From Pseudomonas oryzihabitans (lineage in GTDB: Bacteria; Pseudomonadota; Gammaproteobacteria; Pseudomonadales; Pseudomonadaceae), in contig NZ_CP017024.1 of assembly GCF_014522265.1 (NCBI RefSeq), forward strand, positions 62,001-126,000: a DNA stretch of 64,000 nucleotides, in the 5' to 3' direction. Shown here one piece after another: positions 1,840 to 8,884 of this stretch. The notes beneath the pieces were generated by a model. That model did no database searches and was not told the origin of the DNA. It worked only from the letters and a program-made list of their open reading frames with translations. Each line of letters opens with the position of its first letter. Position 1 is the first letter of the stretch. The position numbers were made by a program, and so were the translations under genes.

Positions 1840-3090
1840 ATGCTGAACTGGGAAGAATTCGACAAAGACGACGACACCGCCACCGCCAAGCCCGCGCAGG
1901 CCGCCGGCCAGCAGGCGCCGGCCCAGACCGAGCGCCTGGACTCCGAGGGCGACGCCCTGGTCCACGACGCCCGTGCCCCATCCGCTGACGACTCCGACGC
2001 CGTGGCCCGCGCCAAGGCCGCGCTGAACGAACTGGACATCCAGGAAGGCCTGGACGACCTGGAAGGCTCCTCCGCGCGCGTGCACGTCGGCGACAAGCAG
2101 ATGATCAACGCCCGCGCCGACCTCAACCAGCTCGTGCCCTTCAAGTACGACTGGGCCTGGCAGAAGTATCTGGATGGTTGCGCCAACCACTGGATGCCCC
2201 AGGAAGTGAACATGAACGCCGACATCGCGACCTGGAAGAGCGCGGACGGCCTCACCGAGGACGAGCGTCGCATCGTCAAGCGCAACCTCGGCTTCTTCTC
2301 CACCGCCGACTCGCTGGTCGCCAACAACCTGGTGCTGGCCGTCTACCGCCTGATCACCAACCCCGAGTGCCGCCAGTACATCCTGCGCCAGGCCTTCGAA
2401 GAGGCGATCCACACCCACGCCTACCAGTACTGCATCGAATCGCTGGGCATGGATGAAGGCGAGATCTTCAACATGTACCACGAGATCCCGAGCGTCGCGA
2501 AAAAGGCGAGCTGGGGCCTGAAGTACACTCGTTCCATCTCCGACCCCGAGTTCAAGACCGGTACCCCGGAGACCGATCGCCAGTTCCTCAAGAACCTGAT
2601 CGCCTACTACTGCGTACTGGAAGGCATCTTCTTCTATTGCGGCTTCACCCAGATCCTCTCCATGGGTCGCCGCAACAAGATGACCGGCACCGCCGAGCAG
2701 TTCCAGTACATCCTGCGTGACGAGTCCATGCACCTGAACTTCGGCATCGACATGATCAACCAGATCAAGATCGAGAACCCTCAGCTGTGGGATGCCCAGA
2801 TGAAGGACGAAGCCACCCAGATGATCCTCCAGGGCACCCAACTGGAGATCGAATACGCCCGCGACACCATGCCCCGCGGCGTGCTGGGCATGAACGCGGC
2901 GATGATGGAGGACTACCTCAAGTTCATCGCCAACCGCCGCCTGACCCAGATCGGCCTGAAGGAAGAATACCCGGGCGCCACCAATCCCTTCCCCTGGATG
3001 AGCGAGATCATGGACCTCAAGAAGGAGAAGAACTTCTTCGAGACCCGCGTGATCGAGTATCAGACCGGTGGGGCGTTGAGCTGGGATTGA
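1840..3090 (+). CDS. nrdB: Ribonucleoside-diphosphate reductase beta subunit
   Basis: Radical-generating diiron subunit (416 aa) of class Ia ribonucleotide reductase. Start at ATG 1840 ([11 protein letters not shown]), preceded by CAGGAGACACCCC; an upstream in-frame codon would run into the repeat. Diiron/tyrosyl motifs are complete: [11 protein letters not shown] carries the E..H ligands and the radical Tyr four residues after His, LEGIFFYCG carries the second-helix Glu, and RDESMHLN carries the final E..H pair. The N-terminus has an extra acidic, low-complexity stretch of about 60 residues before the conserved core, as in other pseudomonad NrdB proteins. Confidence 0.97.
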
Positions 3091-3149
3091 TTATTAAGTT
3101 GACCTAGTAGCTTTCGTTTTAAAAGGATTTTGACAGCAGTGTAAGCATC

Positions 3150-3169
3150 GAGGCTCTTAACCGAGCCTC
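3150..3169 (+). terminator. Probable nrdB terminator hairpin
   Basis: GAGGCTC (3150-3156) / GAGCCTC (3163-3169), a perfect 7-bp stem with a TTAACC loop, followed by TTATA. It lies 60 bp after the nrdB stop and only 13 bp before the next start codon, so it may instead structure the leader of the AT-rich gene. Confidence 0.45.
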
Positions 3170-3182
3170 TTATAGGACAAAA

Positions 3183-4703
3183 ATGAAACTAAATCTACCC
3201 TATACATTTGAAGATGTCCGATCTGCCCTGCAAAGCGCGGGGATCAACCAAAGGCTAGTGGAATTTGTTAAGCCTATAGAAAAAGCCGAAAAAATAATAT
3301 TAAAAATAAAGCAAGAGATAGAGCATTCTGGAAAAGTTCTGTTTCTTCTGGCACCTCCGGGCGTTGGAAAATCGACCTTCATTCAATCTCTAACTTGGAG
3401 ACCACATATAAAGTTTCGCAACTTTATAGAAGTTGACGCTGTCTCGGTTATGTCAGGCAACAAATTTGAAAGCCTTGTAAAAAAGATAAGAGAAATCGCA
3501 GAAACTGCAAAAAAAGAAAAGGAACAGGGACCTACCCTGGTCGTCCTAGATTATCTTGAATCGCTAAATGAGTATCCAGAGCAGGACGTCAAAGGCTTTT
3601 TCAGAGACCTAAATGGAATATTAAGGAAATCACCTCTACTTATACTTTGGCCATCTACGGAGAAGCATGACGTTGAAAAGATGCTTTCGTTTGCAGAAGC
3701 TGTATCAGGGACAATATTCTCTGATGACAATGCCTACGTAGATTTTGACGGCCCGTTGCTAGACACATATCCAGATATCGCTAAGAATACAATCTCAGTA
3801 ATAAATGGGAAGGATATTTCTGACTACTCCCTAACTCAAGCGGACTTGGAAGAATTACTTGAAAAGACCAAGACAAGACCGAAGAGAGAGCGAACAATTA
3901 GAAACTACTTAAAAGCGGTCAGATCCATCTGGTCAGAAAGAAGCAATTACATTCAGGAAATGGAGAACAAAATACCGAAACCGAACGAAATTTGGTTTAT
4001 CTTCTCTTATCCTACAGCTGAGGAAGTAGTTGGAAATTTTATACGCAAAGGTGAGAGGGTACATGAAGCATGGACTGCTATTGGAGATAAATTAGACGAA
4101 TACGTCCAGTCCAGCGCACAACGAAAAAGCATTTGGACGCCACAAAAGTTACAACTTATGTTAACAGGATCCGTCAAAACGAGGATCATGTATCTACCAA
4201 CCAACAGCTTAATATCATTAGCTTTAGCTTTTGGCCAAAACGATACCTTAAAAAAACGTATAGCACCTCACTCCCCAGTGCATTGGAAGCAGAAAAACAA
4301 AGCCGTAGCGCAACTTTCTAATTCGCCTTTGGCTAAGCAATTACAAGGAGAAACTGTTGCCGCAGGAAAACGAAAAGGCGGCCCTGCTGCAAAAGCTTTG
4401 AAAAATGCGACTAGACCGTTTGCAGAGCTAGTTGACTGGGTATCAAACGGCGGAGGACATGACAAATATGTTAATGACGCCGTAGCTAAAGGGCTAGCCG
4501 GATTGGGGTTTAGCTGCAAAACCGGACTAGACCACCCTTGGATACCTGGAATCAAGCCCGACATATTAATTGAACTACCTGACAAACAAATCTGCATCGA
4601 ATTTCATCACACCAATAACGATGCCCAATCTAAAATAGCAGATTACGTACTCAGCAAGCTTTCCGACTACAGCAACCAGCTAGACCTTTACATAAAAAGC
4701 TAA
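3183..4703 (+). CDS. Orphan AAA/P-loop NTPase with nuclease-like C-terminal domain
   Basis: A 506-aa protein of no family I can name. Start ATG 3183 has AGGA 5 nt upstream. Seen: Walker A APPGVGKST (residues 57-65), Walker B TLVVLDY with Asp123, and a sensor-1-like strand LLILWPST (152-159), so the N-terminal 240 residues look like an AAA-type ATPase. The C-terminal 90 residues read like a restriction-endonuclease fold: a helix, LGFSCKTG, then KPDILIEL (Asp460), 12 residues, and CIEFHH (Glu473-x-His475), a PD-x(n)-E-x-K pattern with His for Lys. A middle region (250-410) is unassigned. No signal peptide or membrane segment. The gene is strongly AT-rich (by eye near 40% G+C) with A/T-ending codons unlike its neighbours, and stands alone between nrdB and a chromosomal membrane-protein gene. 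That suggests horizontal transfer. An anti-phage ATPase-nuclease is an inference only. Confidence 0.75.
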   Translation: MKLNLPYTFEDVRSALQSAGINQRLVEFVKPIEKAEKIILKIKQEIEHSGKVLFLLAPPGVGKSTFIQSLTWRPHIKFRNFIEVDAVSVMSGNKFESLVKKIREIAETAKKEKEQGPTLVVLDYLESLNEYPEQDVKGFFRDLNGILRKSPLLILWPSTEKHDVEKMLSFAEAVSGTIFSDDNAYVDFDGPLLDTYPDIAKNTISVINGKDISDYSLTQADLEELLEKTKTRPKRERTIRNYLKAVRSIWSERSNYIQEMENKIPKPNEIWFIFSYPTAEEVVGNFIRKGERVHEAWTAIGDKLDEYVQSSAQRKSIWTPQKLQLMLTGSVKTRIMYLPTNSLISLALAFGQNDTLKKRIAPHSPVHWKQKNKAVAQLSNSPLAKQLQGETVAAGKRKGGPAAKALKNATRPFAELVDWVSNGGGHDKYVNDAVAKGLAGLGFSCKTGLDHPWIPGIKPDILIELPDKQICIEFHHTNNDAQSKIADYVLSKLSDYSNQLDLYIKS

Positions 4704-4997
4704 ATATAACAGGGGATAGCAAAAGCCGTCCCCTCCCTAAAACCAGCCTACTCTCCATTAGACACACTCTTAACTAAAAGTTAAAATCTCAACTTCTAAA
4801 ACTCACTACTCTTCCAATTTGAAATTCTCTTTTACCTACAAAGCTAGTGAGTTTCCCAGGCACTAACTGGGAAAACCGTGCAAATACCCTCAACAATCTA
4901 GATATTTAGCTAACTTTATACCTAGTCATTAGCCTCAGCTCTTGCATGGGAAAAGCATGCCATTTTCCAAGCTACAGAGGCCGTACGCTTCATTACC
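4704..4997. other. AT-rich spacer, right flank of the acquired patch
   Basis: No ORF with a believable start. It holds two weak hairpins: AGGGGA/TCCCCT (4711-4716 and 4729-4734) just after the orphan gene, and TTTCCCAG/CTGGGAAA (4852-4859 and 4867-4874). Composition stays AT-rich until about 4990 and then returns to genome average, which marks the right edge of the island. No tRNA, integrase or flanking direct repeat was found. Confidence 0.6.
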
Positions 4998-5024
4998 TTG
5001 CGAAATTGGAATCAAGGACGACCC

Positions 5025-6071
5025 ATGCCCCGCTGGACCGACCAACCCGCCACCGACACGGATGCCGTCTTCGATTTCATCCTTGAGTTCTCCGGCACCT
5101 TCCTGCGGCGCCATGCCTCGCTGCTGGCCAAGGGGCTGCCGCCGACCCTGGGCTTCGGGATGTTCCTGGCCTATTTCGCCCGTAATCACTTCTATCCCAG
5201 CTTCGATCTCTTCCAGTTCTCGTCGCTGCTGCTGGCCGCTGCCTGCCTGGGGTTCCTGACCATCGGCGCCTTCGTTGCCGCGCTCTTTCTGCCAGGTGCC
5301 TGGGTCTATTACCGCTTCATCAATACGGCGGCGATCAAGGAAGACATCACCTACGCCCTGCCCTATCGCGGCGAGGGGCGCTTTCGCAAGATCATGCTGT
5401 TGATGACGCTGGTGTTCTTCGTGCCCTATCTGCTGGCGGGGTTTAGCGATGCGGCCATTCTCCTAGTCGATCCTGAGCTGTTCCTCAGCGTTGCCTTGCT
5501 TGCACCCATCCCCATCACGCTGCTGGCGGGCATGGCCGTACAGGGGCTATTCGACTTGCGCCGCTTCAGTTTCCTGAAGTTCGTCTGGGAGGCTTACCTG
5601 CCGACAATGGTCGTCGGCATGTTCATTGTCTGGATGCTGGCGCAGGCCTATCCGCTGGTGAGCGATTGGCAGCCGCTGCTCAAGTGGGGCGCTCTGGCCA
5701 TCGCCCCCTTCATCATCGCCTTCGTCACGACCATGACTTCCATGCTGTTCATCGCTGGCTGGAAGGCGGCGATGATGTTTTCGCTGTTCTTCGCCCTCTT
5801 TCTGGCCGGCTATAGCGGTGTGCTCACCACCCTCCCCGAGACCATGGTCAGGACGCTGGGCCTGGGTAACTACCAGGCCAAGGCGATCGTGCTCGATACC
5901 TCCTATTGCGCCAAGGAGCAGGCCAGGGTGCTGCCTACCGATGACCAGTGCGTGCTCAAGGACGTGCAGGTGGTTTGGTCGCTGGGCGAGGCCTTCGTAC
6001 TGCGGCTGGCGGATGGCAGCACGGCGCGGTTGCCGGCCATGGCGATTCGGGCGCTGGTGAAACCCCAGTAA
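5025..6071 (+). CDS. Polytopic inner-membrane protein of unknown function
   Basis: Predicted 348-aa integral membrane protein. ATG 5025 chosen because AAGGA lies 6 nt upstream; a TTG at 4998 in the same frame has no ribosome-binding site. About seven hydrophobic helices are visible (for example PTLGFGMFLAYFA, SLLLAAACLGFLTIGAFVAAL, IMLLMTLVFFVPYLLA, LFLSVALLAPIPITLLAGM, TMVVGMFIVWMLAQA, ALAIAPFIIAFVTTMTSML, AAMMFSLFFALFLAGY). A soluble C-terminal tail of about 80 residues with two Cys (TSYCAKE, DDQCVL) follows. I do not recognise the family. First normal-GC gene after the AT-rich island. Confidence 0.75.
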   Translation: MPRWTDQPATDTDAVFDFILEFSGTFLRRHASLLAKGLPPTLGFGMFLAYFARNHFYPSFDLFQFSSLLLAAACLGFLTIGAFVAALFLPGAWVYYRFINTAAIKEDITYALPYRGEGRFRKIMLLMTLVFFVPYLLAGFSDAAILLVDPELFLSVALLAPIPITLLAGMAVQGLFDLRRFSFLKFVWEAYLPTMVVGMFIVWMLAQAYPLVSDWQPLLKWGALAIAPFIIAFVTTMTSMLFIAGWKAAMMFSLFFALFLAGYSGVLTTLPETMVRTLGLGNYQAKAIVLDTSYCAKEQARVLPTDDQCVLKDVQVVWSLGEAFVLRLADGSTARLPAMAIRALVKPQ

Positions 6072-7915: not shown

Positions 7916-8884
7916 TCAGTGTGCAATCGCTAAAGCAGGGTCGAAAGGCTTGCCTGATTTGAGCACGCCATAGGCGATGGTCAGCAGCTTGCGCATGGCG
8001 GCGCAGACGGTTTGTTTACCTTTCTTCCCCCTGGTTTTCAGACGCTCGGCTTGCGCCTTGATAGCCGGGTTGTAGGTCAGCGCCACGACGGCGGGTAGGT
8101 ATAGCGCACTTCGTAAGCGGACCGATCCCATGCGCGAGATGCCGGTATGGCCGCGGTAAAGACCTGATTCCTGTAGGCGTGGGTTCAAACCGGCAAAGGC
8201 GGTCACGGCGCGGGCATCGGCGAAGCGACCGATATCGCCGAGCTCCGCCAGGATCAGGGCGGCGGTCTTGTCGGCGATGCCGTCTATGCTCACCAGCAGA
8301 TCACGTTTGCCGCTCAGGTCCGGGTCATCGTCGATATGCCGTTTGATCTGTTCGAGCGTCCAGGCGATCTGCTCATCGAGCCGCTGCACGACCGCCTGGA
8401 TCGAGTTTTGGACTTTTTCCGGGCTGACCTCGAGCCGATTGAGTTCCATCTGCCGTAGCGATTAGAGATCCTCCAGGCGCCGGGTCAGCGCGCGAAGCGT
8501 GCGGATGGACACAGGCTCGGGGTGCCAGGCCCGCAGGCTGTCTTCATGCCGCTGGCCATAGGTGGCGATCAGCTTGGCGTCGAGTTTGTCCGTCTTGCTG
8601 CGCTGCAACTGGCTTTGCGCATAGCGAGCGATCTGTGCCGGATTGAGCACGGCGATTCGGTAGCCCAGCGCATGGAAATGCTCGGCGAGCGCTTCGTGAT
8701 AGGTGCCCGTGGCCTCCATCACGATCCAAGCGCCTGGCTCGGCATGCTGTTGCAGCCAGTCGGCAAAGACCGCGAAGCCTGACGGATCATTGCTCAGCCT
8801 GCCCTTGGTCCGGTGCTTGCCATTGGATTGCAGGACCGCCAGATCGAAGCTGCGCTTGGCGATATCAACACCGATTACGGCCAT
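7916..8884 (-). pseudogene. IS110-family transposase interrupted by one stop codon
   Basis: Serine/DEDD recombinase of IS110-type insertion sequences. Start ATG 8884 is preceded by a strong AAGGAGGAG. The RuvC-like N-terminal half (VIGVDIAKRSFDLAV, VMEATGTYH, KTDKLDAKLIA) and the C-terminal Tnp_20 half (LLVSIDGIADKTAALILAEL, FAGLNPRLQESG, GHTGISRMGSVRLRSALY) lie in the same frame, separated only by TAA at 8462-8464. In place of that codon the family usually has Gln or similar (EDL-x-SLRQMELNRLE), so a single substitution inactivated it. Ignoring the stop it is a full 322-residue protein. The two halves might conceivably be made separately (ATG 8449), but a dead copy is the simpler reading. 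Confidence 0.9.

Follow-up and report, generated by a model that had tools for sequence, protein, structure and literature searches.

Why does a single AT-rich gene lie directly behind the ribonucleotide reductase genes of Pseudomonas oryzihabitans, and what might its product do? We addressed these questions in a stretch of 64,000 nucleotides of contig NZ_CP017024.1 (the window, to which all coordinates refer unless a locus is named). An initial annotation, made from the letters of the window, had described an AT-rich island at 3091–4990 with one horizontally acquired orphan gene, whose product would join an ATPase to a nuclease-like C-terminus, and had proposed a role in anti-phage defence.

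The islet behind nrdB

The left core flank of the islet is nrdB (1840–3090, + strand), identified by sequence recognition as the small subunit of class I ribonucleotide reductase, and the right core flank is a membrane-protein gene (5025–6071, +). Between the nrdB stop codon at 3090 and position ~5012, the ORF list contains a sole gene (3183–4703, +), which encodes 506 residues and fills the space up to the ribosome-binding site of the next gene. In the GC profile of the window, the GC content drops from ~0.60 to 0.39–0.45 over 3091–5000 and then goes back up. The gene itself has a GC content of 41.4%, distributed over the three codon positions in a coding-type pattern (0.50/0.36/0.39). Its GC3 of 0.39 compares with 0.71–0.94 for 49 native-like window genes, a range that is partly circular since these genes were preselected at a GC3 of 0.70; an independent control is a scan in 1,500-base windows, which gave 0.413 at the islet and at least 0.597 for all starts below 1500 or above 5500. 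The composition of the islet is too deviant for chance within the window sequence. The AT-rich island and its single gene are thus as initially described; of its limits, the left edge stands and the right edge moves to ~5012, so that the islet, to which we assign no strand, spans 3091–5012, with both junctions marked by a loss of similarity among the genomes of the genus.

For the membrane-protein gene, ATG at 5025 seems the more likely start codon, rather than TTG at 4998; nine of ten genus loci have CAAGGAYGA and then the start codon, and G002 has one variant base. Just 5' of the start codon of the 506-residue gene, a perfect 7-bp inverted repeat (GAGGCTC/GAGCCTC, 3150–3169, +) can be read. 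A simple consensus scan found no terminator-like or promoter-like site on the + strand between nrdB and this gene, so that read-through from nrdAB may be possible. Neither the window nor the loci L036–L038 contain tRNA genes.

Variable cargo at the nrdB site

In the genus, represented by one genome per species, nrdB has a homologue in 13/13 genomes and the membrane-protein gene in 10/13 (E ≤ 1e-20). These two genes are neighbors in all ten genomes that possess both, of which the window's is one. The site is empty in G002 (224 bp) and occupied in the other nine by inserts of 1.1–2.2 kb. Similarity of the flanks stops at the nrdB stop codon in 10/10 loci and is regained at the ribosome-binding site of the membrane-protein gene in 9/10; in G008 this happens only inside the gene, at residue 38. 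The inserts have DNA stretches of 26–34 bp in common at most, and at the protein level the cargo shows relatedness only between two AIPR proteins (31% over 122 residues). The eight inserts besides that of the window have a GC content of 0.38–0.44, and none of 481 half-kb windows outside the site, taken from the nine fetched genus loci, falls below 0.47.

Searches with PADLOC matched five of these eight inserts with E < 1e-20: PDC-S33 (1.4e-128) to a RelA/SpoT protein, PDC-S08 (1.9e-139) to a 5'-nucleotidase, dGTPase (1.5e-72), and AbiU twice to AIPR/AbiU proteins (1.3e-109 and, as a partial match, 6.9e-21). The dGTPase insert also holds a primase-like partner gene which, like the small second gene of G006, has no PADLOC match. 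Ten control genes, drawn at random from the GC3-filtered native list of the window, yielded one match at the same threshold (mad3, partial) and another, weak one to CARF/CasR; the enrichment of 5/8 against 1/10 is one of raw counts and small numbers. With its core flanks, variable content and enrichment in defence-like genes, the nrdB site is a hotspot. Three of the eight inserts (L055, L056, L059) lack a PADLOC match, so that a use for defence alone is unsupported. A low GC content can by itself bring genes of unrelated kinds to one site.

These three inserts are AT-rich as well. From reading, L055 (11028–11816) encodes a Sel1-like, secreted-looking protein and L059 (3512–4444), on the opposite strand, a GIY-YIG-looking protein of 311 residues; the product of L056 (2437–3441) has 335 residues.

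Within the family, 64 of 79 genomes have a match to nrdB. We considered 19 further nrdB loci, from the three congeners without a match to the membrane-protein gene and 16 hand-chosen other members of the family. The first kb lies at least 8 GC points below nrdB in 13 of the 19 (barely so in L117), and frames with a GC content of at most 0.52 are present in 13 of the 14 loci inspected. For ten loci, with L105, L115 and L122 left out, one protein each was scanned with PADLOC, and four of the ten had matches with E < 1e-20 (1/1 in the genus, 3/9 outside): PDC-S59 in the congener L104, a partial HNH effector-like match in L114, dCTP deaminase in L116 and bSEFIR in L121. Matches were weak in L107 and L120 and missing at E 0.001 in the other four. 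Because of these GC drops and PADLOC matches behind nrdB in other family members, the hotspot reaches past the genus; not every genome uses the site.

The cargo directly behind nrdAB includes nucleotide-pool enzymes in L054 (dGTPase), L058 (5'-nucleotidase) and L116 (dCTP deaminase-like), beside the very genes for DNA-precursor synthesis. In L107, L110, L111 and L119, we also read genes that resemble REP-associated transposases of the Y1 type (MPGGTYFFTVNLRDRR and similar); they come after nrdB or after its cargo, within ~2 kb downstream of nrdB, and might aid cargo exchange. In the window itself, two adjacent frames at 7916–8884 (− strand) read like the halves of an IS110-type transposase, possibly a broken copy.

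Defence hotspots flanked by core genes are already known as a kind. In Pseudomonas aeruginosa, according to PMC10250203, cDHS1 (median size 26 kb) has merR on one side and a DUF4011 gene on the other, and cDHS2 is flanked by tmRNA. Both resemble the nrdB site in being variable, GC-poor and defence-rich, located between core genes and not bound to one mobile element, whereas the nrdB site of the genus differs by holding one or two genes in 1–2 kb. The accessible portions of this paper and of PMC12629846, both on Pseudomonas hotspots, contain no word starting with 'nrd'. Among the literature matches listed, none describes an nrdB hotspot, a weak absence as most subscription papers lie outside that scope.

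A sparse family of ATPases with a nuclease-like domain

Among 95 genomes (its own, 12 congeners and 82 others), the 506-residue gene occurs in its own only; with 0/12 congeners carrying it, a core gene beside nrdB is ruled out. An order-level search of 390 genomes gave two relatives, in Marinobacterium weihaiense and Marinobacter sp. CHS3-4, matched throughout residues 128–506 (45% and 42%); their complete frames have 510 and 508 residues. A contig scan with the alignment as query added a relative in Onishia taeanensis (three matches, two of them these same relatives); a first scan without the alignment had given no relatives. Profile searches contributed L050, from the same order (144 genomes; 57 bits over residues 5–352), and L078, from the same class (249 genomes; E 3.7e-32 over the full length). 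With L050 as query we found two near-identical genes on Nostoc plasmids (20.6% identity over the length); plasmid searches with the window protein and L078 gave no relatives, those with L050 and L036 being the only ones that did.

Likewise, no relatives were obtained in a phage search with three family proteins or in a viral contig search with the window protein and two alignments. Sets of 145 and 100 genomes gave matches to the Walker region or none, and sets of 369 and 398 genomes gave matches to the ATPase part or short, weak ones; the searched genome sets overlap. The class search had 18 other matches at E ≤ 0.01, all inside residues 5–137 and most, on reading, in frames of FtsH-like length, and residues 128–506 as query added 6 and 7 short, weak rows in two sets (E 0.004–0.09). 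A 507-residue frame in L002, promising by its length, turned out to be an NtrC-like regulator. Since genome searches give few and distant relatives, the family is, judged by these comparisons, real, diverged and very sparse, with full-length open frames of 506–510 residues at 41–42% identity in four genera. The gene is hence an orphan within its genus, but not beyond it.

In Onishia, a perfect 53-bp repeat is present in two copies 37 kb apart: the family gene begins 131 bp past the left one, and the other is located at the start of an ion-channel-like gene. Between the copies we read, without profile search, integrase-, repressor-, terminase-, portal- and tape-measure-like frames. Repeats and phage-like frames together identify the gene as prophage cargo between attL and int. 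Hotspots of antiviral genes borne by prophages and satellites have been reported (PMC9122126), which the Onishia gene resembles as accessory cargo in a prophage, but the phage is another one and the gene lies between attL and int. The second repeat copy (L038:7793–7845) is at the very start of the ion-channel-like gene; the attachment site of the prophage is thus the 5' terminus of a protein-coding gene.

The Nostoc plasmids carry an annotated integrase gene ~1.2 kb from the family gene. In Marinobacterium and Marinobacter, the family gene reads as standing alone between ordinary genes, and we recognized no mobile-element gene beside it in the fetched flanks of these two and of the window. All seven relatives measured have a GC content below that of their flanks (gene/flank 0.37/0.62, 0.39/0.57, 0.42/0.62, 0.44/0.58 and 0.52/0.72 outside Nostoc, 0.37/0.43 and 0.37/0.44 in Nostoc). 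The relatives are thus AT-rich genes at unlike places in other genomes, as expected of the same gene at variable sites, and together with the foreign GC content in the window, the absence from the 12 congeners and the carriage by a prophage and plasmids, this bears out the proposed horizontal acquisition. At L061 (7629–10672), we read the L050 gene as adjoining genes for a 247-residue membrane-looking protein and a 218-residue protein with the canonical-looking nuclease motif VIEVKRS; the locus lies between hydantoinase-like and dihydropyrimidine dehydrogenase-like genes, among others.

The motifs of the N-terminal ATPase, all encoded on the + strand, stand where they were initially annotated. 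Walker A is APPGVGKST at residues 57–65 (3351–3377), with G60, G62, K63, T65 and F66 invariant in the 7/7 rows of the family alignment. The Walker B-like D123-Y-L-E126 (3549–3560) has D-x-x-E in place of hhhhDE; the aspartate noted at 123 is present but not invariant (Asp in 5/7, Asn in Marinobacterium, Tyr, as aligned, in L050), and position 126 is Glu in 6/7 and Asp in L050. The predicted sensor-like strand, LILWPST, ends with residues 155–159 (LWPST, 3645–3659), where W156 and P157 are invariant and the polar residue of sensor 1 is present at 159 (Thr in 6/7, Asn in Nostoc).

AAA is the sole Pfam match over cut-off (residues 54–132, 29.2 bits against a cut-off of 21.2), reached in two of seven scanned members, the window protein and L037. 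Of the families suggested at the outset for the N-terminal part, AAA is therefore recovered, but the nSTAND models stay under cut-off in the members scanned (E 0.01–0.13). PADLOC, NCBIfam and PHROGs gave short P-loop or weak matches with the window protein; the best PADLOC matches were to PtuA over 34 residues (3.2e-6) and to mad8 and TRIP13 over the P-loop region, the longest was to LmuB (230–260 residues, E 0.003 and 0.03), and none of six family members scanned had a strong one over most of the protein. A sequence search of the whole protein against solved structures returned AAA and other P-loop proteins. We found no description of the family in profile libraries; as curated families match its AAA part only, the combination is not a named one in these libraries. 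From the AAA+ ATPases (PF00004; VPS4/Cdc48/FtsH group), to which only ~80 of its residues match in Pfam, the window protein differs by its Walker B with D-x-x-E instead of DE and by its fusion to a nuclease-like domain.

A helical middle connects the ATPase to the C-terminal domain (residues 427–506, 4461–4700, +), for which alignments and AlphaFold2 point to a PD-(D/E)xK-like order of helix, three strands and long helix. This order recurs in two models, whose mean pLDDT is only 40.5 (single sequence, unusable) and 50.6 (four sequences, weak). The putative active-site residue Asp460 (4560–4562, +) and Glu473, part of Glu473-Phe-His475 (4599–4607, +), an E-x-H where (D/E)xK would be expected, are kept in 7/7 members even though their domains are just 23–45% identical to that of the window. 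The third catalytic position is His in 5/7 and Thr in 2/7, with the row of L050 aligned differently at E-x-H in another alignment; the canonical lysine is absent. The initially proposed pattern thus holds for its three residues, with both acids invariant, but not for the lysine.

Matches to known nucleases are lacking: no nuclease-family profile matched the C-terminal part, and a search of its profile against PDB sequences gave nothing below E 0.2. The full-length profile matched designed helical-repeat proteins over residues 381–466 (2.5e-6), which we take as compositional. No nuclease came up in the fold searches: fold comparison (VIA), effectively limited to residues 31–175, listed only ATPases (AAA or other P-loop proteins), and a viral structure library, uninformative on residues 176–506, had nothing at E ≤ 0.001. 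Structure prediction hence gives the order of elements at low confidence and no confident fold.

The domain resembles PD-(D/E)xK nucleases in an invariant Asp where predicted strand 2 begins, the Glu in or next to predicted strand 3 and the flanking helices, and differs from them in the His or Thr at the third catalytic position and in the lack of a profile or fold match. PD-(D/E)xK enzymes without the canonical lysine exist. We do not claim membership for the domain and retain the wording that it may work like one; based on the two acids kept in every member and on a secondary structure predicted at low confidence, nuclease activity of the protein is plausible but unproven. Single-gene ATPase or nuclease defence proteins are an established kind, and AVAST/STAND defence NTPases unite a P-loop NTPase with a nuclease effector in one protein. 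The window protein shares with the latter the P-loop NTPase and nuclease-like domain in one chain, but differs in its length of ~500 residues, its order of ATPase then nuclease and the absence of a STAND Pfam match over cut-off.

Proposed role and rival explanations

As the gene is sparse, AT-rich at unlike places, located in a defence-rich hotspot and carried by a prophage, we interpret it as a conflict gene, most simply one for phage defence. It is likely defence cargo, a claim that follows from its location, and probably an undescribed single-protein phage-defence gene. The full reading, that of a mobile anti-phage cargo in an nrdB defence hotspot whose AAA-type ATPase is joined to a nuclease-like domain, is the one we favor, with moderate confidence. 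The defence role put forward initially thus gains from the hotspot and the mobile carriage, but not from any good match to a known defence model. In this reading, the ATPase would bind ATP, probably as an oligomer, and an infection cue, such as a phage protein or unusual DNA ends, might be sensed via the helical middle. Sensing would license the Asp460/Glu473 site to cut nucleic acid, resulting in degradation of the phage or growth arrest of the infected cell. Since the islet holds one gene only, the whole cargo would be swapped at once, for which homologous recombination within the conserved flanks is the simplest route.

The gene could also be defence cargo without a working nuclease, its C-terminal domain being a degenerate restriction-endonuclease-like fold that serves as nucleic-acid binder or as sensor while the ATPase is the effector. 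The His or Thr at the lysine position and the lack of a convincing PDB sequence match to the domain fit this possibility, which we nevertheless consider rather unlikely, as the conservation of D460 and E473 across such divergent domains is difficult to reconcile with an inactive site. Carriage of relatives by a prophage and plasmids would equally suit a selfish or conflict gene other than an anti-phage one, acting in plasmid or prophage maintenance or in competition between mobile elements. This is unlikely to a greater degree, given that the genes at the nrdB site frequently resemble defence genes and that the window, Marinobacterium and Marinobacter show no recognizable mobile-element gene next to the family gene.

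Foreign DNA that is decaying or non-functional, and open by chance, would be AT-rich and rare as well, but full-length frames in four genera that keep the ATPase and the D/E residues make this highly improbable. Finally, a housekeeping role as an accessory to ribonucleotide reductase or to DNA repair, with the place at nrdB determined by function, would account for the position 3' of nrdB on the same strand with no terminator-like site in between. The absence from the congeners and the other locations, where relatives read as adjoining clpB-like, HMG-CoA-lyase-like or prophage genes, strongly disfavor it, and we accord it next to no probability.

A more far-reaching version of the favored reading, which we advance only tentatively and consider doubtful, makes the protein the founder of an undescribed family of single-protein anti-phage ATPase-nucleases (E-x-H variant). 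Its site would be a one-gene socket that has no integrase and has so far gone undescribed, located 3' of the ribonucleotide reductase genes throughout the bacterial family. Recombination would exchange the defence genes in this socket, among them several for nucleotide-pool enzymes, and their transcription might start at the nrdAB promoter. If true, cargo in the socket would be expressed along with the demand for DNA precursors.

The locus thus provides a short candidate defence gene outside the PADLOC library. It also provides a compact hotspot, comprising one or two genes in ~1–2 kb with sharp junctions in the genus, that can be read family-wide for new defence genes by position, and the three genus inserts and four of ten further inserts without a PADLOC match at E 0.001 are ready defence candidates.
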